Source: a virus. From it: DNA of 24,076 nucleotides. The stretch lies in the IMG/VR virus record IMGVR_UViG_3300021165_004422, positions 1 to 24,076 of that record; one strand, 5' to 3'. The notes beneath the pieces are model-generated. The model did not search any database. It had not been told where the DNA came from and saw nothing but the letters and a program-made list of their open reading frames with translations. A program made the translations under genes and the position numbers. Positions 3,389-22,936 of the stretch are shown piece after piece. The stretch's first letter is position 1. Each line of letters opens with the position of its first letter.

Positions 3389-3544
3389 TTAAACGTAATA
3401 CAGACGGTTGGTGCGGTCACAAAATGCCATCCATTGCATGGCGAGATTCGCGTTCTCCGCGCCGCCGAGCGGGCAATTATTCATGCGATGCCATGCGGAA
3501 CGCCCAAGGGCGCGATGAGAGTGTTTTCTGAAGTCGAGTTTCAT
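3389..3544 (-). CDS. Small basic hypothetical protein, 51 aa, first gene of an early operon
   Basis: ATG 3544 to TAA 3389-3391 encodes 51 residues beginning MKLDFRKHSHRALGRSAWHR and ending 'CDRTNRLYYV'. It is rich in Arg, His and Asn and is basic overall. It is the first ORF behind the promoter at 3569-3597 and one of the few genes here with a Shine-Dalgarno-like AAGGA (3556-3560, 11 nt before ATG). Its DNA is visibly more GC-rich (roughly half G+C) than the AT-rich neighbours, suggesting a different history or strong selection. No family is recognised. A fast-expressed small basic protein at this position would fit a host-takeover function, but that is inference only. Confidence 0.65.
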   Translation of the reverse strand: MKLDFRKHSHRALGRSAWHRMNNCPLGGAENANLAMQWMAFCDRTNRLYYV

Positions 3545-3568
3545 GTTGTGGTGTTTCCTTACAGGAAC

Positions 3569-3597
3569 ATTCTACCATAAAAAGTGGCTTTTGTAAA
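3569..3597 (-). promoter_or_regulatory. Early-type promoter for the ligase operon
   Basis: Minus-strand -35 TTTACA (3592-3597, within GTTGTTTACA), a 17-bp spacer ending TATGG, and -10 TAGAAT (3569-3574). A TTGAAAAAAG tract immediately upstream resembles an UP element. The same composite (A-tract, GTTTACA, 17 bp, TATGGTAGAAT) recurs at 13928-13956 and 16373-16401. The predicted leader is about 18 nt and carries AAGGA before the 51-aa ORF. Confidence 0.85.
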
Positions 3598-5071: not shown

Positions 5072-7627
5072 TTAACAAAAGAAATCCTCAAGACTTGCCA
5101 CAGGTTCTGGTTTCCAACCAATGGCATTTAAAATAAGCTGCAACGGTTCAACAAATGTTTTTTGAAATTGCAGTTCATAATCAATGTATGAGTGTAAACC
5201 AAACTCGACTGGCAGCCGATCAATAAATCCAATAACATTTTCATTTGTTGGATTTTGTTTTTTCAAATGTATGTATTTGATTTTATCACCGCCTTGAATA
5301 AGTTGATATTGCTGTTCCAAACCTTTTGTTACACACAAATGATTATGCATAAGAGCAGCACGAGAATTCATAGGAGTGCCTTTAATGTAAATTGAAGCAC
5401 GATCAGTCCATTTTTTAAGGTTACTTACACCACGTGGCGAAGCAATTGCTTCCGGCGGCAAACTGCAAAAATATGTTTTAAATTGAGCCAATGCTTTTTG
5501 AGTACAACTTTCGTCTTGATTCATAATTACTTTGAATAGTTCCTTAAATGCTTGCCTGCAAACTTTAGGTGTTGAACTTTTAATAGCCTCAATGCCCATC
5601 ATTTTAATTTTAGGTTCTGCATATTGAACGCCTTCATTGTTGTGCACATTTAAAATATAGCGTTTTTTAGCAATTGCAATTCCACGGTTTGAAATGCTTT
5701 CGCGTTTCATTACCATCTTATTGTCGTATGCATTGGTAAGTGTTGCAAATTTTGCAAACGATTTTTCCAACATAGGTTCAATTGACTTTTTGGCAAATTC
5801 ATCAAGAAACATTACTGGGTTTTTAGGATTAAATTGATCAATAATATCCTTCACGCCAATGTAACAGCTGTCAGTGTCCATCATAATAACACGATCCTTG
5901 GGAACATCATCTTTTAAAAATTTGGACAAGTGGTTATTAAAGCTTTCCTCTGCCCATTTAATCACAAGCTGACCTGTAAGTGTAATGCCTTCGGCCACCG
6001 CAATGTCAAAATATCGGAAAAACCTGTTTCCAATGGCACCATACAAACTGTTCAGCAAAATTTTGATGGCCATTTGTTCCGTTTCAAGACGATCAACGGC
6101 GGACGCAACCGCAAAATATGCTTTGGGATTTTGTTGCTCGTGTATTGTTTCCAATTCCTTCTTTTTGTCAATCATCTGTTTTTTAAGAAGCACACGTTTG
6201 GAATATAGCTCCTCAACAATTTGTGGCATAAACCCTTGTTTATCTCTTCGGAAACATGCTCCATTGGCCGCCGTGGCCAAATTAGGTTCCGGGCTTATGT
6301 GTTTCTTTTCCTGAAGAATCCGATCAACGTCCAAACCGTGCACCGTCATATGACGCACCAATGTTTCTGGGCTCATATTGTATTGCATAATCAAAGAAGG
6401 ATAAAGACTGTTAAGGTCAAAACTTAGTACCCATTCGTGCATTCCAACAGCTGGATCTTTCACATATCCACCAGGATATGCAACCGCCGCCTTGGGCACA
6501 CTTGGCGGAACGGCAATATGTTGTTTGGCCAATTTTCGGAAAATAATTGTATCCCAAATGGCAACAGTTCCTAATGTTTCGCTGTAATTAACACCACCAA
6601 AATATGAAAGAGTAAAGACAAGATTTAGCAATCCAAGTTTGGCCTCCAACCGTTCAACAAGTTCTACGTCCTTAATGTTGTAATCCAAGAAATGTTGGAA
6701 ATCATGTTCATACAATTTTGTAAGATTGTTGTGAGTGCCATAATCCAATTTATTTTCACCAAGAACAACTTCTGCAATATTGTCCAATTTGTAACTTTCT
6801 TGTTGGCCGTAAGTATTAAGCGTGAATTTTTTAAATAATTCCAAATAATCCAATTGTTGGACACCCAAAATTTCATAATAAATATTTGTTTGTCCTTGAA
6901 AAGTTTTGGATTTTTGTTCAACTTTGTTCCACGGTGATAGTTTGGACGCATCGGCATTTCCAAGCACACGAGAAATTCGGTTAATAAGATACGGAATATC
7001 AAAGTTAATAATATTCCAACCGGTAACAACATCAGGTGTATTGTTTGTGTCACCCCACCAATTTAGAAAATCGAGAAGCAATTCCGATTCATCAACAAAT
7101 TGTCGATATTCCTTTTTAAGATGAGGCACACTGCTTGCACTGACATCATAATTTTTAAGACCCCAAGCAATGTATGTATCACTGCGACTGCTTTTAATTG
7201 TTATGGTAACAATAGGATGCACCGCTTGATCCGGTTCAGGAAATCCACCGTCGGCTCCATCAACGCCACTAGGACATTCCAAATCCAAATAACATATATC
7301 AATTAATCTTTTGTCATATGGTATTGCATCCGGAAATTCCGCTTGAATAAATGCTGGAATGTGTCGTTCATTGCCATAAATTTTATAGCCGTTAACATCT
7401 TCATAACTTTTGGAAAACTCGCGGCATTCACTCATGCTTTCAAAGCGCATAGGCTCTAATGGAATACCGTCCAAGCTTTTCCATTTGGCGTTTTTATCTT
7501 TACTTTCAAGATAAACCGTAGGCCGAAAGCGATATGTGTTATAAACTTTTTTCCCATCATCATCATACCCACGATAGAGTATGCTGTTCATTTTTCGATC
7601 AACACATGTATAAAATCCATTCAGCAT
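5072..7627 (-). CDS. 43: DNA polymerase, family B, T4 gp43-like, 851 aa
   Basis: This is the replicative polymerase with 3'-5' proofreading. Numbered from ATG 7627, the exonuclease motifs are 'YLDLECP' (Asp115, Glu117), 'NFDIPY' (Asp210) and 'YNIKD' (Asp320). The polymerase motifs are A 'SFDLNSLYPS' (Asp404), B 'KILLNSLYGAIGN', and C 'MMDTDSCY' (Asp584, Asp586), followed by 'KKRY'. The extreme C-terminus 'ASLEDFFC' resembles the clamp-binding tail of T4 gp43. The length is close to T4 (898 aa). The frame is open to 7666, but N-terminal alignment with T4 gp43 ('FY' strand, then 'DDDGKK') and the promoter both point to ATG 7627. That ATG lies exactly 6 nt after the -10 box, so the mRNA may be leaderless. 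Cotranscribed with the primase downstream. Confidence 0.97.
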   Translation of the reverse strand: MLNGFYTCVDRKMNSILYRGYDDDGKKVYNTYRFRPTVYLESKDKNAKWKSLDGIPLEPMRFESMSECREFSKSYEDVNGYKIYGNERHIPAFIQAEFPDAIPYDKRLIDICYLDLECPSGVDGADGGFPEPDQAVHPIVTITIKSSRSDTYIAWGLKNYDVSASSVPHLKKEYRQFVDESELLLDFLNWWGDTNNTPDVVTGWNIINFDIPYLINRISRVLGNADASKLSPWNKVEQKSKTFQGQTNIYYEILGVQQLDYLELFKKFTLNTYGQQESYKLDNIAEVVLGENKLDYGTHNNLTKLYEHDFQHFLDYNIKDVELVERLEAKLGLLNLVFTLSYFGGVNYSETLGTVAIWDTIIFRKLAKQHIAVPPSVPKAAVAYPGGYVKDPAVGMHEWVLSFDLNSLYPSLIMQYNMSPETLVRHMTVHGLDVDRILQEKKHISPEPNLATAANGACFRRDKQGFMPQIVEELYSKRVLLKKQMIDKKKELETIHEQQNPKAYFAVASAVDRLETEQMAIKILLNSLYGAIGNRFFRYFDIAVAEGITLTGQLVIKWAEESFNNHLSKFLKDDVPKDRVIMMDTDSCYIGVKDIIDQFNPKNPVMFLDEFAKKSIEPMLEKSFAKFATLTNAYDNKMVMKRESISNRGIAIAKKRYILNVHNNEGVQYAEPKIKMMGIEAIKSSTPKVCRQAFKELFKVIMNQDESCTQKALAQFKTYFCSLPPEAIASPRGVSNLKKWTDRASIYIKGTPMNSRAALMHNHLCVTKGLEQQYQLIQGGDKIKYIHLKKQNPTNENVIGFIDRLPVEFGLHSYIDYELQFQKTFVEPLQLILNAIGWKPEPVASLEDFFC

Positions 7628-7633
7628 AAGAAT

Positions 7634-7662
7634 ATTATAACAAAAATCCGCAAAGATGTAAA
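7634..7662 (-). promoter_or_regulatory. Promoter of the DNA polymerase gene, interlocked with a terminator
   Basis: Minus-strand -35 TTTACA (7657-7662), 17-bp spacer, -10 TATAAT (7634-7639). The -10 is 6 nt from ATG 7627, so the A of the AUG is the expected +1. The -35 lies across the loop and last stem base of the hsp20 terminator, and the downstream stem arm forms most of the spacer. Confidence 0.82.
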
Positions 7663-7678
7663 CCAATCTTTGCGGATT
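7645..7678 (-). terminator. Rho-independent terminator after hsp20
   Basis: A 13-bp perfect inverted repeat (7645-7657 with 7666-7678; AATCCGCAAAGAT and its complement) with an 8-nt loop is followed on the minus strand by TTTTTG. It lies 24 nt beyond the hsp20 stop (7702). It separates the hsp20 unit from gene 43 while containing that gene's -35 region. Confidence 0.88.
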
Positions 7679-7701
7679 TAATAATTTTTATTGATTATTT
7701 T

Positions 7702-8225: not shown

Positions 8226-9152
8226 TTATTTTTTATCTCTTACTTCGGCCGCAAGGTCTGCATCTGCCTTACCCCACGTTCCTGGGCTTTTGGTGGCAAA
8301 TGAATTTACTCGTGCGTATCCCCACTGCTCTTGAGTTGCGCCAGGACGATGGCCGCTTTTCCATGCACCCATACCACGGCGCATTACAGCACGAAGAATA
8401 CCAATAGAAATTCCAGTTGCTTCACTTTTCTTTTGCAGCGCCTTTTCAATTTTTTCATTGTCAATAGGTCCTCGAGCTGTTGATTTTTCATGTAAGGATA
8501 CCGATTCGTCTATAGTACAAATATCTTGAGTGTTGTATTTTTGAGTTCCGCTGGAAGAACAACTTAATCTATCATACAAATATTTGTATTCTTTAGATTT
8601 ATCACCTAAATATTCTTTAATGTAATTTAATGCTTTTTGTTGAAACGGTCTATCAAAATCCGAATGTTGCGCCAACAACCAATAATTTTTCCAATCTTCC
8701 CTAGTAAAGGTCTTAAAATCAAAATTAATTTTTACAAATTTTTTTAAATTTTCTTTTTCACCGAAAATATCGTCTGTTGATCTATTTTTTAATTTAGCAT
8801 AAAGCGTTGACCCTTTTGTAAAATCACCTCCAGCTTTATTTTTTACAAAATTTGCATAGTCAGATCTTTCTTTTTGGTCTTGGTTAACCAAGGAAGATAA
8901 TATTTCAGATTTTTCTGTAATCTCTTGTTCTTTTTCACCAAAAAGATCTTTATATTTTTGTGTAAATTTTGAAACTTTTGATGTTTTACGGCCTTTGGTA
9001 TCACCGGGCATTTCTTTGTATGCGGCCGGATCATCAGAATCCATTGCCGCTTGTTTTGCCATTTGAGCTTTTTTCTTATCAATGGTACTAGGACTTAATC
9101 CGGTAAAATAAGCGTTTTCTGTTAACCAATCTTTAAAAGTTTGTAAACTCAT
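8226..9152 (-). CDS. Multi-domain hypothetical protein (DUF6624-like plus DUF5824-like), 308 aa
   Basis: Three segments are visible. (1) Residues 1-70: 'LTENAYFTGLSPSTIDKKK', then 'DPAAYKEMPGDTKGRKTSK' and 'FTQKYKDLFGE', a module recalled from several marine phage proteins. (2) About 150-215: 'YWLLAQHSDFDRPFQQKAL' and 'YLYDRLSCSSSGTQKYNTQ', matching my recollection of the DUF6624 signature (QH-D...Q, Y-DR, GTQ-YGTQ). (3) About 245-308: 'ISIGILRAVMRRGMGAWKSG', 'QWGYARVNSF' and 'GTWGKADADLA', the DUF5824 pattern. The middle 75-150 is Lys/Glu/Asp-rich and probably flexible. No enzymatic function is established to my knowledge. The start overlaps the regA stop (ATGA), so the two are cotranscribed. 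Domain names are from memory and need profile searches. Confidence 0.75.
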   Translation of the reverse strand: MSLQTFKDWLTENAYFTGLSPSTIDKKKAQMAKQAAMDSDDPAAYKEMPGDTKGRKTSKVSKFTQKYKDLFGEKEQEITEKSEILSSLVNQDQKERSDYANFVKNKAGGDFTKGSTLYAKLKNRSTDDIFGEKENLKKFVKINFDFKTFTREDWKNYWLLAQHSDFDRPFQQKALNYIKEYLGDKSKEYKYLYDRLSCSSSGTQKYNTQDICTIDESVSLHEKSTARGPIDNEKIEKALQKKSEATGISIGILRAVMRRGMGAWKSGHRPGATQEQWGYARVNSFATKSPGTWGKADADLAAEVRDKK

Positions 9153-9577
9153 ATTTTTTTCTTAACATTACCAATACTGTATTTGCACAAGCAGGTCCAA
9201 TCTTGTTTTGTTGCATGAGAAAGAATCTTAATTTGTTTAAGAGAAGTTACATCTTTAATATCCTCTCTGTTGCTTACGCGCAGCAAACCCCAATCGGAAA
9301 GCAATGTTACAATGGTATTGCGCCTGCAAAGATCTTCATATGTAAAAGTGCTTGGTTTGCCGTCAAGCAAAAACAGTTCTTTAAAATGAACTATAAAGTA
9401 CCGCCCTTGCTTATGCAATATGTGGCAACTTTGATATAATGTATTATGATCTTTTTTTGAAGCAACACCAATGCGACCTAATGTTTCTTTAATTTTAAGA
9501 AAATCATCTGGTTCATTCAAATATATTTCCACCATATTTGATGGGCTCCAATCAATCATTGTATTAAGATCATTCAT
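9149..9577 (-). CDS. regA: RegA translational repressor, 142 aa (or 128 aa from an internal start)
   Basis: RegA binds the initiation regions of many early phage mRNAs and blocks ribosome binding. It aligns clearly with T4 RegA (122 aa): 'VEIYLNEPDDFLKIKETLGR', 'LYQSCHILHKQGRYFIVHFK', 'LLSDWGLL' and 'KYSIGNV'. T4 RegA begins at the residue equivalent to Met15 here (ATG 9535), so the annotated start adds 14 residues ('NDLNTMIDWSPSN'). ATG 9577 is kept because it is the first ATG in frame after the late box at 9589-9596, but ATG 9535 is a genuine alternative. Position downstream of 62 and upstream of 43 matches T4. It ends in an ATGA overlap with the next gene. Its likely targets include genes 44, 45 and 43. 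Confidence 0.93.
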   Translation of the reverse strand: MNDLNTMIDWSPSNMVEIYLNEPDDFLKIKETLGRIGVASKKDHNTLYQSCHILHKQGRYFIVHFKELFLLDGKPSTFTYEDLCRRNTIVTLLSDWGLLRVSNREDIKDVTSLKQIKILSHATKQDWTCLCKYSIGNVKKKI

Positions 9578-9588
9578 AACATTAGTGT

Positions 9589-9596
9589 TATTTATA
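9589..9596 (-). promoter_or_regulatory. T4-type late promoter box TATAAATA upstream of regA
   Basis: An exact TATAAATA on the minus strand in the 31-nt gap between gene 62 and regA, 11 nt before ATG 9577. The predicted leader is about 6 nt if that start is used and about 48 nt if ATG 9535 is used. Function as a late promoter is inferred from the octamer and the presence of a gp55 homologue. Confidence 0.6.
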
Positions 9597-11570: not shown

Positions 11571-12242
11571 TTATAGATTAAATGCTGAGGTTTTTTCCAG
11601 CGCGATAAAGTATTGCACAGGTTGTGATGCGTTTTGCCAATGTGAAATAAGCTTGCTGCTTATTTGAACGGTATAGTCGCCAGGAACTACCTTAAGGTTA
11701 CCAATCAAAAAGTGTAGATCAAACGATGCCTTTTGAGCATTGGCGTCATCAATAACAATGGAAAAGGTATTGGCGGATGAGTTTTTCGGATCACCAACAC
11801 TTAATGTTACAATGCCATCTGCACCTGTAATTGATGCAATTGTATGTCCTAGTGCGCCAGCGGCCTTGCGAATTTGAGTGAGAATTTCCTCACTGATGGT
11901 AACAACAAGATCGGATGCTGGCATTTTAATTTTACTACCAGGAGTTGTAAGAATGCTCGGGTCTGCAAAACGATATGATGCTGTGCTGCGGCCGCTTTTA
12001 AAGCGCACGCTGTCTTCAGAAAAATCAAGTTCAGGATTATCCATAAGTCCAAACATGGAAATAAATTCATTAAGATCATAAATTCCAAACGTGCTGTCAA
12101 ATGTGCTTACCTCCGAAATGGCCATAATGTTTTTTGCCTCAGAAATTGTTGAAATAGGTTCATTTGCTTTGATCAGCAAATTGGAATTAATGGATGCAAA
12201 GTTTTTTAGAATATCAAGTGTTTGCGATGTTAGTTTTGTCAT
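11571..12242 (-). CDS. 45: Sliding clamp (processivity factor), gp45-like, 223 aa
   Basis: A trimeric ring that tethers polymerase gp43 to DNA and also acts as the mobile activator of late transcription with gp55. It aligns with T4 gp45 (228 aa) along its length: 'TLDILKNFASINSNLLIKA', then 'FGIYDLNEFISMFGLM', 'GRSTASYRFADPSI', 'EILTQIRKAAGALGHTIASI', 'LKVVPGDYTVQIS' and 'VQYFIALE'. Family members lack catalytic motifs, as here. The ATG lies exactly 6 nt after the -10 of the promoter at 12249-12277, so a leaderless message is predicted. A strong terminator isolates it from the upstream winged-helix gene, giving gene 45 its own promoter. Confidence 0.95.
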   Translation of the reverse strand: MTKLTSQTLDILKNFASINSNLLIKANEPISTISEAKNIMAISEVSTFDSTFGIYDLNEFISMFGLMDNPELDFSEDSVRFKSGRSTASYRFADPSILTTPGSKIKMPASDLVVTISEEILTQIRKAAGALGHTIASITGADGIVTLSVGDPKNSSANTFSIVIDDANAQKASFDLHFLIGNLKVVPGDYTVQISSKLISHWQNASQPVQYFIALEKTSAFNL

Positions 12243-12248
12243 AATTGT

Positions 12249-12277
12249 ATTATATGTTATTTTGTTGGAAATGTAAA
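12249..12277 (-). promoter_or_regulatory. Promoter of the sliding clamp gene
   Basis: Minus-strand -35 TTTACA (12272-12277), 17-bp spacer, perfect -10 TATAAT (12249-12254). Six bases separate the -10 from ATG 12242, so the expected +1 coincides with the start codon. The promoter follows the terminator at 12292-12325. Confidence 0.82.
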
Positions 12278-13878: not shown

Positions 13879-13927
13879 AATGTAGTGTGGGGTGTGTGGT
13901 TTGGAGAGTGTCGTTCCCGATGAAGTT

Positions 13928-13956
13928 ATTCTACCATATTTTGCACGGTTTGTAAA
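13928..13956 (-). promoter_or_regulatory. Early-type promoter of the CobS-like gene
   Basis: Minus-strand -35 TTTACA (13951-13956, in GTTGTTTACA), 17-bp spacer ending TATGG, -10 TAGAAT (13928-13933), with a GATAAAAAG tract upstream. The predicted leader to ATG 13878 is about 43 nt and lacks a Shine-Dalgarno sequence. Confidence 0.85.
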
Positions 13957-13981: not shown

Positions 13982-16366
13982 TTATGCAATAATTTCAGCA
14001 AATTTGTTAAGAAACACACGAGATGTTCTTTTCTCGGAGGCGAATTTGGTAAAATCCTTGGCAAGTTTGGTTTGAACACTTGATTCGGTAAAGCTTTTGC
14101 CAGAGGATATGCTGTCCGATTCAAAAGAATTTTCTTCAGCAATGTTCAGATTTTTTTTATTTTCAAAAATGAAATATGCGTCATAGTTAAATGCTCCTTT
14201 GACAAGCAGGCATTTTTCCTTCTTATTTTTTTTGGTTTCAGTTTTAAACTTTTCGGATGCCGCAGCCCAGGAAAGCGATTCTTTATTGTTTGAATTGTAG
14301 ATAAAGGAATCAATTCCATTGGTTTTCAAATCTCTTTGATTTTGAGCAACAAAGAATCCCAAAACGGTAGTACCGCAAGTGATTTTTAGATTTTCAATAA
14401 GATCGGAATATAGTTTTTTGAGAGAACCATTATTGTCGTAATAGCTTGAACTCTGAGTAAAGTTAATTTCACGACCGTGAACGTTAATCATATAGCTTGG
14501 AGTGTAAGTTACAGTATTGATTGATTTCTTACGGAATTGGCTATCCGAACTATTGTCATACAACATTAAGCGAGAACCGTCACCATCCGTAAGAAATACG
14601 GTATTCATTTTTTGAATTTTATGTTTGGCTTTAAAAGTTTTTACAATGTCATGAGCAACAATAATAGTTTCCATCAAAGGAGTGCTGGACATTTTTTCAT
14701 AAAGTGTAGGCATATTAAAATTGCAACGAGCATTGGAATTAAAATTGAACACTTGTGCTTTAAGCTCACGAACAGACAATTCAAACTTATCTTTTTTCAT
14801 ATCACTGTTAAGCAATTGGAAAATATGAGTTGAATCATCAAGGCGGATATTCAATCCAAATGGAGTTGAAGAATTGCACGAGGATGTCCTTTCAGAATGA
14901 TAAGCTGACAGATCATCAGGGCCGGTAAAACCATAAACCTCAAATGGAATTCCCACCGCCTTGCAAAAGTAAACAAGTTGTAGTGTTTGGTCAATAACAT
15001 CTTCCAAAGTGTAGCGCATGGAACCGCTATAGTCGATGAAAAATACCATACCGTGAGATTTGGCATCAGCCAAAGAAGTGACGCTTTTGAAAATCTGATC
15101 TTCAAATTTGTATGAATGAAGCTTATTGACATTAATAGAACCAGATGCACTTTCGCGTGAACGGCTGTATTGAAAAGCGGATTTTCTCCGTTCAAACTCC
15201 TTAATAAGAACAGCAATATGTTTCTTGGTCGAAGTTTTAAATTGCGCATAATGCGCCGTAAATTCCGGATTGGTCAAACATGTGTTGTAAAAAGGACAAG
15301 TTTGACGCGCATGCATAACCTTGTCCACAGGAACAACAACATTCATTATTTGTTCTTTTTTCGGAGCATTAATTATAGAATAATCAATGTTCTTTTGAAG
15401 ATCTTTCAAATTGGATTCAAATTCATTTTGCGTTAGCGATTCGAAAGGATCCGTGTCGTCCGAATAATTCGGTTTAAAGGAATCCTTTCCTTTGCTGGAG
15501 CCGGGTGTTGTTGATTGATCATCAATCTTCGAGCACTCTTTAGTGGAATCGGTAGATGAGTCATCAGAATCAGCATCCGATGCATTACCATCTTCATCAC
15601 CATCACCTGCGGCATCACCTTCACTATCACCATCGGCTTCCGACTTTTGTTCTTTGGATGCATCAGAAGCATCGGAGTTTGTTTCCTCAGAACCATCTTG
15701 TTCTTCAGAATCTCCGCCGACCGATTGTTCACCTTCATCTTGTGATTCATCTTCATCTTCAGATTCATCTTCGCCTTGAGATTGATTTTCCTTATTCTTT
15801 TCTTTTTCGGCGCCGACAAATTCATAAATGTCTTTGCAAATTTCAAGAACTTCATCATATGATTCGGCGGCCAAACAACGATTGTAAAGCACTTCCTCTT
15901 CCGCACTCAAAGGAATATCCATCAAATTGCCAATCTTACCTTTAAGGTTTAGGCGATCAATAAATCCGAATTTTGTTAAATCCTTATTGTTAAGTTTGAA
16001 GAAGTCCTTTTCAATAAAGTGTTTGTAACCTTCACGAAAGGAATAAATAAGGCCGGGATAATTGTCGCGGACCATTCTTTCAATGCGGATATCCTCAACA
16101 ACGTTGCCAATGGCAAATGGAGCACCTGGGATTTTTTCGTGAAAGCGTGAAATTGCATCAGATGGAGTATGAAGAGCATGACCAACTTCATGTCCTACAA
16201 GCAAATCGGATACAAACTTGCTGTCGGTGTTCCATGTTGGAAGTCCCAACGTTCTGTTTTTAACATCAAAGAATGCCGTATTGTAGTTTCCCACAATCAC
16301 GTTGATGTTTTCCTTGGCCAAAAGCTTGGCAAGCATTGTTGGAGTATTTGTATTTGCAACCTTCAC
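13982..16366 (-). CDS. CobT-like protein: zincin-type metallopeptidase domain, acidic linker and VWA domain, 794 aa
   Basis: Numbered from GTG 16366. Residues 59-63 are HEVGH (HExxH zinc site, in 'LLVGHEVGHALHTP'), followed by 'VVEDIRIERM' (about 89-98), whose Glu/Asp could supply the third ligand as in gluzincins. Residues ~195-285 are an extremely acidic Ser/Asp/Glu/Gly linker, as in CobT. The C-terminal half has a VWA fold with a MIDAS motif 'FIDYSGSM' (Asp445, Ser447, Ser449) and 'VFLTDGDGSR'. Such proteins pair with MoxR/CobS ATPases. Start choice: GTG 16366 lies 6 nt after the -10 box and would be leaderless. GTG 16372 would be upstream of +1, and ATG 16336 is an alternative that removes 10 residues. 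The substrate is unknown; a chaperone-protease role in phage assembly or replication is inference. Confidence 0.85.
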   Translation of the reverse strand: MKVANTNTPTMLAKLLAKENINVIVGNYNTAFFDVKNRTLGLPTWNTDSKFVSDLLVGHEVGHALHTPSDAISRFHEKIPGAPFAIGNVVEDIRIERMVRDNYPGLIYSFREGYKHFIEKDFFKLNNKDLTKFGFIDRLNLKGKIGNLMDIPLSAEEEVLYNRCLAAESYDEVLEICKDIYEFVGAEKEKNKENQSQGEDESEDEDESQDEGEQSVGGDSEEQDGSEETNSDASDASKEQKSEADGDSEGDAAGDGDEDGNASDADSDDSSTDSTKECSKIDDQSTTPGSSKGKDSFKPNYSDDTDPFESLTQNEFESNLKDLQKNIDYSIINAPKKEQIMNVVVPVDKVMHARQTCPFYNTCLTNPEFTAHYAQFKTSTKKHIAVLIKEFERRKSAFQYSRSRESASGSINVNKLHSYKFEDQIFKSVTSLADAKSHGMVFFIDYSGSMRYTLEDVIDQTLQLVYFCKAVGIPFEVYGFTGPDDLSAYHSERTSSCNSSTPFGLNIRLDDSTHIFQLLNSDMKKDKFELSVRELKAQVFNFNSNARCNFNMPTLYEKMSSTPLMETIIVAHDIVKTFKAKHKIQKMNTVFLTDGDGSRLMLYDNSSDSQFRKKSINTVTYTPSYMINVHGREINFTQSSSYYDNNGSLKKLYSDLIENLKITCGTTVLGFFVAQNQRDLKTNGIDSFIYNSNNKESLSWAAASEKFKTETKKNKKEKCLLVKGAFNYDAYFIFENKKNLNIAEENSFESDSISSGKSFTESSVQTKLAKDFTKFASEKRTSRVFLNKFAEIIA

Positions 16367-16372
16367 GTGCAC

Positions 16373-16401
16373 ATTCTACCATAAAGAAGCCGATTTGTAA
16401 A
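16373..16401 (-). promoter_or_regulatory. Early-type promoter of the CobT-like gene
   Basis: Minus-strand -35 TTTACA (16396-16401, in TGTTTACA), 17-bp spacer ending TATGG, -10 TAGAAT (16373-16378), with a TTTTTTGAAAAAAG tract upstream. The -10 is 6 nt from GTG 16366. Confidence 0.85.
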
Positions 16402-19271: not shown

Positions 19272-19895
19272 TTAAAATTCTAAAAACTTATCAAGCAGTC
19301 CTTCACGTGAAGAATTATGTTTTCTTTTATCAACCTTTTTAAGTTTTTCCGATGCTGCTTTTGCTGCTTTTTCCTCATTGTCATAATTATAAAATGCATC
19401 ATTCTTTTGCCGCATTTTTTCAATCATGCTTTCATTACCGTTGGCTGAATTTTCATCAAATTCTGCAAAATTACCAATGCTGCCATGTTCGATCAATGCT
19501 TGTTTAATGCTCATTTGTTTCTTTTCCTTGGCAATTCTACGCAAAAAGGCAAAGTAACTTATTTGTGTAAAGTATGAAAAGGCATTGGCCGCACCTGTTC
19601 TTGTAGGTGCATCAAATTTGAAATTGTTTGCGGCTTTAATACAATTTTCAACGGCGTCCATAACCATGTCATCTCGATATGTGTATTTGACAAAGTTGGG
19701 ACTTTTTGATAGACCGTAACAAATTTTCAAAAAGCATTCACCGATGTAGTCGGTAAGTGGTCTTGGTTCTTTTCCTTCAGCCAAGTCCTGCTGCACTCCT
19801 GTTACATGTTCATATAATGCTTGAGAAAATTCTTTGTTGTTCACATAATCTTCGCCGCGTGATCTTCGTTTTTTTATTGGATATTCGTCGTCCAT
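19272..19895 (-). CDS. 55: Late-transcription sigma factor, gp55-like, 207 aa
   Basis: gp55 directs host RNA polymerase to TATAAATA late promoters together with clamp gp45. It matches T4 gp55 (185 aa): 'YVNNKEFSQAL', 'DYIGECFLKICYGLSKSPNF', 'DDMVMDAVENCIKAANNF', 'NAFSYFTQISYFAFLRRIAK'. These cover the sigma region-2-like core. The C-terminal 'GLLDKFLEF' is a hydrophobic/acidic tail consistent with clamp binding as in T4. There is a basic N-terminal 'KKRRSRGE' before the conserved part. ATG 19895 lies 7 nt after a -10-like TAGTAT, so the mRNA may be near-leaderless. It heads the 55-47-46 unit. Four exact TATAAATA boxes elsewhere in the window provide its expected targets. Confidence 0.94.
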   Translation of the reverse strand: MDDEYPIKKRRSRGEDYVNNKEFSQALYEHVTGVQQDLAEGKEPRPLTDYIGECFLKICYGLSKSPNFVKYTYRDDMVMDAVENCIKAANNFKFDAPTRTGAANAFSYFTQISYFAFLRRIAKEKKQMSIKQALIEHGSIGNFAEFDENSANGNESMIEKMRQKNDAFYNYDNEEKAAKAASEKLKKVDKRKHNSSREGLLDKFLEF

Positions 19896-19902
19896 AGATG
19901 TA

Positions 19903-19930
19903 ATACTATACGGTCTACAAAGAATGTAAA
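19903..19930 (-). promoter_or_regulatory. Promoter of the gene 55-47-46 operon
   Basis: Minus-strand -35 TTTACA (19925-19930, in GTGTTTACA), 16-bp spacer, -10-like TAGTAT (19903-19908), with TTTTTTGAAAAAAAAG upstream. It lies 7 nt before ATG 19895. The -10 is weaker than at the other early promoters. Confidence 0.7.
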
Positions 19931-19976: not shown

Positions 19977-20004
19977 TTTACATCAAAAACTATTATGATA
20001 TAAT
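19977..20004 (+). promoter_or_regulatory. Possible plus-strand (antisense) promoter in an AT-rich gap
   Basis: TTTACA (19977-19982), 16-bp spacer and perfect TATAAT (19999-20004) on the plus strand, divergent from the gene 55 promoter. Transcription would begin near 20011 and run antisense to the 138-aa gene. No plus-strand gene follows. The 19931-20010 stretch is almost entirely A/T, so a chance match is possible. Confidence 0.4.
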
Positions 20005-22427: not shown

Positions 22428-22886
22428 TTATATATCAATAAATTCGAATCGGTCATAGCGGAACGTCACGTCAACATATGCATAGTCAGTGGCGGTGTTT
22501 TGAACATTAAATTCAATACCACTGCATGATGTCGGAAATGCATTTGTAAATTTTACTTGGCGAGAAACATTATTATGCCCTGTCATAAAATGCAATATAA
22601 GTTCTTGTGTTTTTAACTTAAACTCATTGGTATTATGCAACATCCAATTGTACATTTCATTGTATGATTGCAATTCTTCATCAACGGCAATACGGATTGT
22701 AAGCGGTTCATATTGAAGTACATCATCTGGAACAAATCCTTGTCTGTTGCGGAATGATGTGTTTGCTTCGCCTAGTGATATGCTTGGAAAAGAAGCACTT
22801 ACGGCAAAAAATTCAGAAAGCTTAAATTCATTTGTACCACCGATGGTAAGTTTAAATCCGGTAAGTGCTAATAAGTTGTATTGCAT
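22428..22886 (-). CDS. Tail-tube-fold structural protein (gp3/gp19-like), 152 aa
   Basis: The pattern 'LTGFKLTIGGTNEFKLSEFF', 'SFPSISLGEANTSFRN', 'LQYEPLTIRIAVDEELQSYN', 'EMYNWML', and a C-terminal strand 'AYVDVTFRYDRFEFIDI' is typical of the tail-tube fold shared by gp19, gp54 and gp3-type proteins in T4-like phages. The position directly after gp23 and before uvsY matches where gp3 (tail terminator/sheath stabiliser) is found in marine relatives, as I recall, so gp3 is the leading candidate; a baseplate or tube protein is the alternative. A late box (22893-22900) ends exactly 6 nt before ATG 22886, and the gp23 terminator lies just upstream, so it has its own late, probably near-leaderless, transcript. 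Confidence 0.72.
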   Translation of the reverse strand: MQYNLLALTGFKLTIGGTNEFKLSEFFAVSASFPSISLGEANTSFRNRQGFVPDDVLQYEPLTIRIAVDEELQSYNEMYNWMLHNTNEFKLKTQELILHFMTGHNNVSRQVKFTNAFPTSCSGIEFNVQNTATDYAYVDVTFRYDRFEFIDI

Positions 22887-22892
22887 ATGGAA

Positions 22893-22900
22893 TATTTATA
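22893..22900 (-). promoter_or_regulatory. T4-type late promoter box TATAAATA before the tail-tube-fold gene
   Basis: An exact TATAAATA on the minus strand, 6 nt before ATG 22886. It starts about 4 nt after the T-run of the gp23 terminator. By T4 spacing, +1 would be at or one base before the AUG. Confidence 0.85.
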
Positions 22901-22902
22901 CT

Positions 22903-22936
22903 AAAAAAGCGGTTGGCCTTTCGACCAACCGCTTTT
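22903..22936 (-). terminator. Rho-independent terminator of the major capsid gene
   Basis: A perfect 12-bp stem (22905-22916 with 22925-22936, AAAAGCGGTTGG and its complement) with an 8-nt loop ends in TTTTTTAG on the minus strand, 24 nt after the gp23 stop. It is symmetrical enough to work in both directions. Between the stop and the hairpin is a second short inverted repeat (AAGGAT/ATCCTT). Confidence 0.93.

Follow-up and report, generated by a model that had tools for sequence, protein, structure and literature searches.

How does a T4-type phage initiate translation of a gene whose promoter runs directly into its start codon? T4 itself is the textbook example of regulated, Shine-Dalgarno (SD)-dependent phage translation, complete with nucleases that cut SD sequences and with translational repressors. 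The question is raised by gene 43, encoding the DNA polymerase (851 aa, 5072-7627, minus strand; Pfam PF00136 and PF03104), in the window analysed here, i.e. the whole 24 kb (24,076 nt, 37% GC) of the viral record IMGVR_UViG_3300021165_004422 from IMG/VR. The promoter of this gene (7625-7662, minus strand) consists of TTTACA (7662-7657), a 17 bp spacer and TATAAT (7639-7634), with the ATG (7627-7625) following after only 6 nt.

The initial annotation had listed four promoters of this kind, all on the minus strand, and each was found where it had been placed, with TTTACA, a spacer of 16-17 bp, a -10 box and 6-7 nt before the start codon. Besides gene 43, they belong to gene 45 (sliding clamp, 223 aa, 11571-12242, PF09116; promoter 12240-12277, with TTTACA at 12277-12272, 17 bp, TATAAT at 12254-12249, 6 nt and ATG at 12242-12240), to a cobT-like gene (16364-16401; TTTACA 16401-16396, 17 bp, TAGAAT 16378-16373, 6 nt, GTG 16366-16364) and to gene 55 (19893-19930; TTTACA 19930-19925, 16 bp, TAGTAT 19908-19903, 7 nt, ATG 19895-19893). 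As the -10 hexamer of sigma70 promoters spans positions -12 to -7, the predicted +1 coincides with the initial nucleotide of the start codon and, for gene 55, precedes it by 1 nt. At all four genes, the predicted +1 is thus located 0-5 nt before the start codon, the interval taken here to define a leaderless gene, and this geometry is best interpreted as that of leaderless transcripts. The start codons of genes 43 and 45 are credible, since the N-termini of both proteins align with RB69 proteins of solved structure (residue 4 of gp43 with residue 3 of RB69 gp43; residue 3 of gp45 with residue 2 of RB69 gp45). Those of the cobT-like gene and of gp55 draw their support entirely from relatives. 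In the cobT-like gene, a second GTG abuts the -10 box, but the one 6 nt past the box was retained as the start because closer relatives have ATG or GTG there. A further promoter-like TTTACA/TATAAT pair (19977-20004), on the plus strand and hence antisense in orientation to the genes, lies in the interval separating gene 55 from the gene next to it; it is conserved in three relatives (G001, G002 and G004), together with a common downstream stretch similar to GTAACCGCAAATGCTGTTA, and could possibly produce a small antisense RNA.

Profile searches detected gp43, regA, gp62, gp44, gp45, gp46/47-like proteins, uvsW, uvsY and gp23 in the window, which also holds ligase, primase, hsp20, a cobS-like gene, the gene in the cobT position, gp46, gp47 and gp55, gp23 being partial. 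The assignment of gp55 relies on position and related loci, as Pfam gave no match. Core replication and late-transcription genes follow one another in T4-type order, identifying the window as T4-type (Kyanoviridae-like). A DNA-level search against named phages returned no near match, and the nearest ones by protein are C48C1 (gp43, 47%) and HTVC008M or Melnitz (gp45, approx. 45%). In the gp43 tree, the nine members with start-proximal promoters (one of which, G013, was labelled as such by hand) were grouped with an SH-aLRT of 100; judged from sequence comparison, the window is a member of a well-supported clade of uncultured T4-type phages. Neither psbA nor psbD was detected (0 of 12 contigs), which, these contigs being fragmentary, is weak evidence against cyanophage membership.

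Genome-wide counts were performed on nine clade contigs, fetched whole (512 called genes, starts being called mechanically as the first ATG), with C48C1, HTVC008M, Melnitz, S-ShM2 and T4 as controls. The clade contigs are mutually related, so that counts are not fully independent and p values are optimistic. Two peculiarities of gene content were recorded along the way. The gene 43 frame of contigs G009 and G010 (L022-L025) stops at 497 aa versus approximately 850 aa in relatives, and the polymerase gene of these contigs is, from its reading frame, apparently split, interrupted or frameshifted. In addition, two of the proteins aligned from G006, G009 and G013 (alignment A3) match IscB/Cas9d-type NCBIfam models (E approx. 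1e-10 to 1e-13), and may possibly be ordinary HNH endonucleases.

Conservation of the 6 nt spacing in related phages had been proposed as a check on the leaderless reading, and within the clade it held. Indeed, relatives sharing 53-89% gp43 identity have the ATG of gene 43 at 5-8 nt from its -10 box, and gp45, cobT and gp55 display the same spacing in closer relatives, while losing it in some distant ones. Outside the clade, near spacing is mostly gone; gene 43 keeps it in C48C1 and in two short contigs, so that at this gene alone the arrangement is wider than the clade. Most of the more distant T4-type loci (gp43 below 47%) exhibit TTGACA-type promoters and a longer leader, often with an SD of the AAAGGATA type. 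When strict promoters were counted independently of gene calls and summed over contigs, an ATG was found 5-8 nt after the -10 box in 36 of 96 cases in the clade (approx. 10 expected from other offsets) versus 4 of 27 in the five T4-type controls (approx. 3 expected), with a peak of the clade's sigma70-type promoters at 6 nt before the ATG. Among genes with an upstream gap, near promoters precede 80 of 311 in the clade versus 10 of 259 in the outgroup (Fisher's p = 5e-14, optimistic as the contigs are related); approximately three-quarters of these clade genes have no recognized near promoter. The suspicion that leaderless-type spacing is rare in T4-type phages was also borne out, in T4, S-ShM2, Melnitz and HTVC008M.

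Late promoters share this geometry. The box TATAAATA occurs 57 times in upstream regions of the clade versus 5 expected, and it precedes gp13-, gp14-, gp20- and gp21-type genes, which assigns it to the T4 late promoter class. In the nine clade contigs, and again irrespective of gene calls, an ATG follows 4-8 nt on in 54 of 105 boxes (14, 21 and 13 at 5, 6 and 7 nt, respectively, versus 2.2 per background offset), compared with 5 of 56 in the controls; in the late region of T4, 0 of 16 boxes are near an ATG and 14 ATGs are found at 18-32 nt. T4 late transcription begins approximately 6 nt past the late box; a 5 nt spacer would thus set +1 on the A of the ATG, and one of 6-7 nt would leave a leader of 1-2 nt. 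The T4-type late leader, with an SD between promoter and gene, is not what the clade displays. The window itself provides an example on the minus strand (22884-22900), where the box (22900-22893) is followed by 6 nt and by the ATG at 22886 of a predicted near-leaderless late gene (22428-22886), a module also present in G001 and G002. An exception of an intermediate kind is regA (9149-9577, minus strand), whose late box (9578-9596) is separated from the gene by 11 nt, in the window as well as in G001 and G002.

SD-like motifs, sought at -18 to -5, precede 22 of 512 clade genes versus 21 for a background window of the same size placed farther from the start; the outgroup displays them on 194 of 456 genes (43%) versus 42 in the background window (clade versus outgroup, Fisher's p = 3e-50, again optimistic given the relatedness of the contigs). 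The same holds for clade genes separated from the previous one by at least 15 nt (16 of 311 versus 17 in the control window) and for tightly spaced genes (6 of 201 versus 4): SD-like motifs are at background frequency, operon-internal genes included. Neither this near-absence of SD nor the start-proximal late promoters had been noticed in the initial annotation. Conversely, a U immediately before the start codon, U(-1), is found in a proportion of 0.63 of clade genes versus 0.34 in the outgroup and 0.26 for all ATG trinucleotides, rising to 0.78 in clade genes located 0-14 nt behind the previous gene. That U(-1) pairs with A37 of the initiator tRNA is a known idea.

Loci carrying gp23, fetched after the hypothesis was formed, served as an independent check. 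Among the 47 genes of the five loci with gp23 identities of at least 69%, SD was present on 4% and U(-1) on 60%, and late boxes were near the start in 9 of 15 cases; the three loci at 60-63% identity were intermediate; and those below 59% (66 loci, 642 genes) had SD on 52% of genes and U(-1) on 34%, with near late boxes in 37 of 197 cases and an ATG at 15-33 nt in 116 of 197. Plasmids of Synechocystis and Leptospira biflexa, used as yardsticks, are unlike the clade (SD 27-31%, U(-1) 29-34%).

The clade is thus SD-free throughout and leaderless in part only. In most of its members, gp23 has a CA-rich leader (AACAACAACAA) in place of an SD, which recurs in the clade (L178-L182). Within the window, gene 3389-3544 has a leader behind its TTTACA-17-TAGAAT promoter and cobS probably has one; these SD-less leaders, at 3389-3570 and before cobS (approx. 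13882-13930), contain the sequences GTAAGGAAACACCACA and ACTTCATCGGGAACGACAC, which recur in relatives. Other starts are preceded by terminator-like hairpins on the minus strand. The hairpin at 7644-7679 (14-bp stem, 8-nt loop, then a T-run) holds most of the gene 43 -35 box in its loop, and 10 of 10 relatives retain a stem of 13-17 bp, albeit of different sequence. The hairpin at 22905-22936 (14-bp stem, GAAA loop) lies directly before the late box of gene 22428-22886, so that hairpin, late box and ATG succeed one another from 22936 to 22884, as they also do in G001 and G002. Modules of this type would prevent transcription from running in from upstream, and the message of the next gene would begin at its own AUG. 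As a general module, the combination of terminator and promoter was rejected, since it was found at no more than 9 of 80 near-promoter genes.

Taken together, we consider it quite likely that this clade has abandoned SD initiation, that both of its promoter classes often set +1 on the AUG or within approximately 2 nt of it, and that adaptation to the host is the likeliest cause. The host RNA polymerase, and later the polymerase programmed by gp55, would start on or beside the AUG, and this 5'-terminal AUG would most likely be read by 70S ribosomes with initiator tRNA. Such 70S initiation on leaderless messages has been reviewed (PMC9031893) and, by analogy, is plausible for the messages predicted here. 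Operon-internal genes and genes with leaders (gp23, cobS) would probably depend on translational coupling, on A-rich unstructured starts and on U(-1) extending codon-anticodon pairing. As to the cause, we infer that these phages have most likely adapted to a host whose ribosomes seldom use SD, a reading that fits best because operon-internal genes are affected too.

Several searches addressed the host and its translation apparatus. A gp43 profile search of GTDB contigs yielded no relative. The phage ribonucleotide reductase query (RNR) retrieved five loci, one of them being a phage-like contig of 4.4 kb from a Flavobacteriales MAG, but the case for Flavobacteriales as host was judged too weak, since the binning of phage contigs is unreliable. 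The best match of a tRNA-Met query against 299 genomes of one phylum was 76% identical over near-full length, and a Bacteroidota-type promoter set was not evident in the clade (TAnnTTTG: 22 found versus 13 expected). On the phage side, contig G006 carries approximately 22 tRNAs and a tmRNA. Its large tRNA cluster (L133:16203-19922 and L134:110-984) includes this one-piece tmRNA (L133:17996-18326; Rfam RF00023, 118 bits), with the tag AQQQKALIT according to ARAGORN and, in another frame, ATTKGINNLALAA with the canonical end. At L133:14525-14599, the same contig has a tRNA-Met with the C1xA72 mismatch of the initiator acceptor end and an initiator-typical CCCGCAACCA end, without the three G:C pairs of the anticodon stem.

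This equipment suggests another possibility, namely that the host uses SD normally and that, during infection, the phage itself modifies the ribosome or changes how much initiator tRNA is available, in favour of SD-free and leaderless messages, all the more as a surplus of initiator tRNA favours leaderless translation in Escherichia coli (PMC9031893). Yet the tRNA-Met of G006 lacks the three G:C pairs, its initiator-like pattern was not seen in the other clade loci (themselves fragments), searches for a phage bS21 and for RegB found none, and the genes expressed first in infection are already devoid of SD; we regard such a phage-driven switch as unlikely. The bolder version, in which a T4-type lineage moved its whole genome to 5'-terminal-AUG and U(-1)-assisted initiation at both promoter classes, itself promoting the switch via ribosome or initiator tRNA, seems to us similarly doubtful.

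The initial annotation had proposed a deliberate design in which certain early genes only are leaderless, either so as to evade repression that acts through leaders or so as to favour 70S initiation during takeover. Genes 43, 45, cobT-like and 55 do show the geometry and the T4-type controls mostly do not, and leaderless early messages remain well supported by geometry and conservation; their restriction to a few early genes does not, since late gp55-type promoters are built alike and SD is gone from operon-internal genes, both of which point to a genome-wide mode of initiation. A takeover design is accordingly very unlikely. Even less probable, in our view, is that transcripts start further upstream, from other promoters or by read-through, the close boxes simply arising because the gaps between genes are compact and AT-rich. 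AT-rich upstream regions do yield many weak -10-like words in a relaxed scan, but a single spacing stands out as a sharp peak for both strict promoters and late boxes, the equally AT-rich controls (T4, 34% GC; HTVC008M, 32% GC) have no such peak, and the terminator-like hairpin would isolate gene 43 from upstream transcription in all ten relatives. Chance AT-rich matches were likewise ruled out by the phasing of both promoter types relative to equally AT-rich controls. The preferred reading thus remains that of a clade adapted to an SD-poor host.

A literature search that covered few subscription journals retrieved no description of T4-type phages that are leaderless or lack SD. Bacteria poor in SD are already known, as are leaderless genes; a T4-type phage clade of this kind appears to be new. 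Devoid of SD, and with AUGs often at predicted transcription starts in both regulons, it would constitute a natural experiment in switching the mode of initiation. In addition, phage sequence alone could hint at the initiation mode of a host, and hence at its identity, and the start codons of such phages may be misassigned by gene callers that depend on SD.

Compared with known systems, the closest parallel for the promoters is found in bacteria, where a -10-like signal approximately 12 bp before the start codon is read as the mark of a leaderless gene, such genes averaging 19% in Actinobacteria and 39% in Deinococcus-Thermus (PMC3160421). There as here, +1 is expected to coincide with the AUG or to lie close to it, but the clade is one of T4-type phages, involves a late promoter class too, and has no SD on its other genes. 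Bacteroidetes and many Cyanobacteria, neither SD-led nor leaderless (PMC3160421), resemble the clade in their background level of SD and their A-rich starts, whereas the clade adds TTTACA/TATAAT promoters fused to start codons and a strong U(-1). Closer by descent, C48C1 (OQ984149), the nearest named phage by gp43, has the gene 43 TATAAT 7 nt before the ATG, as in the clade, but carries SD on 35% of its genes and U(-1) on 44%. T4, HTVC008M, Melnitz and S-ShM2 share the gene content, the order around 43-62-44-45-46-47-55 and the late box; they differ in having SD on 34-57% of genes and, for T4, late boxes 18-32 nt upstream of the ATG. Finally, the leaderless message of lambda cI is expected to start with AUG, as predicted here, but concerns a single gene, whereas the arrangement of the clade is genome-wide.
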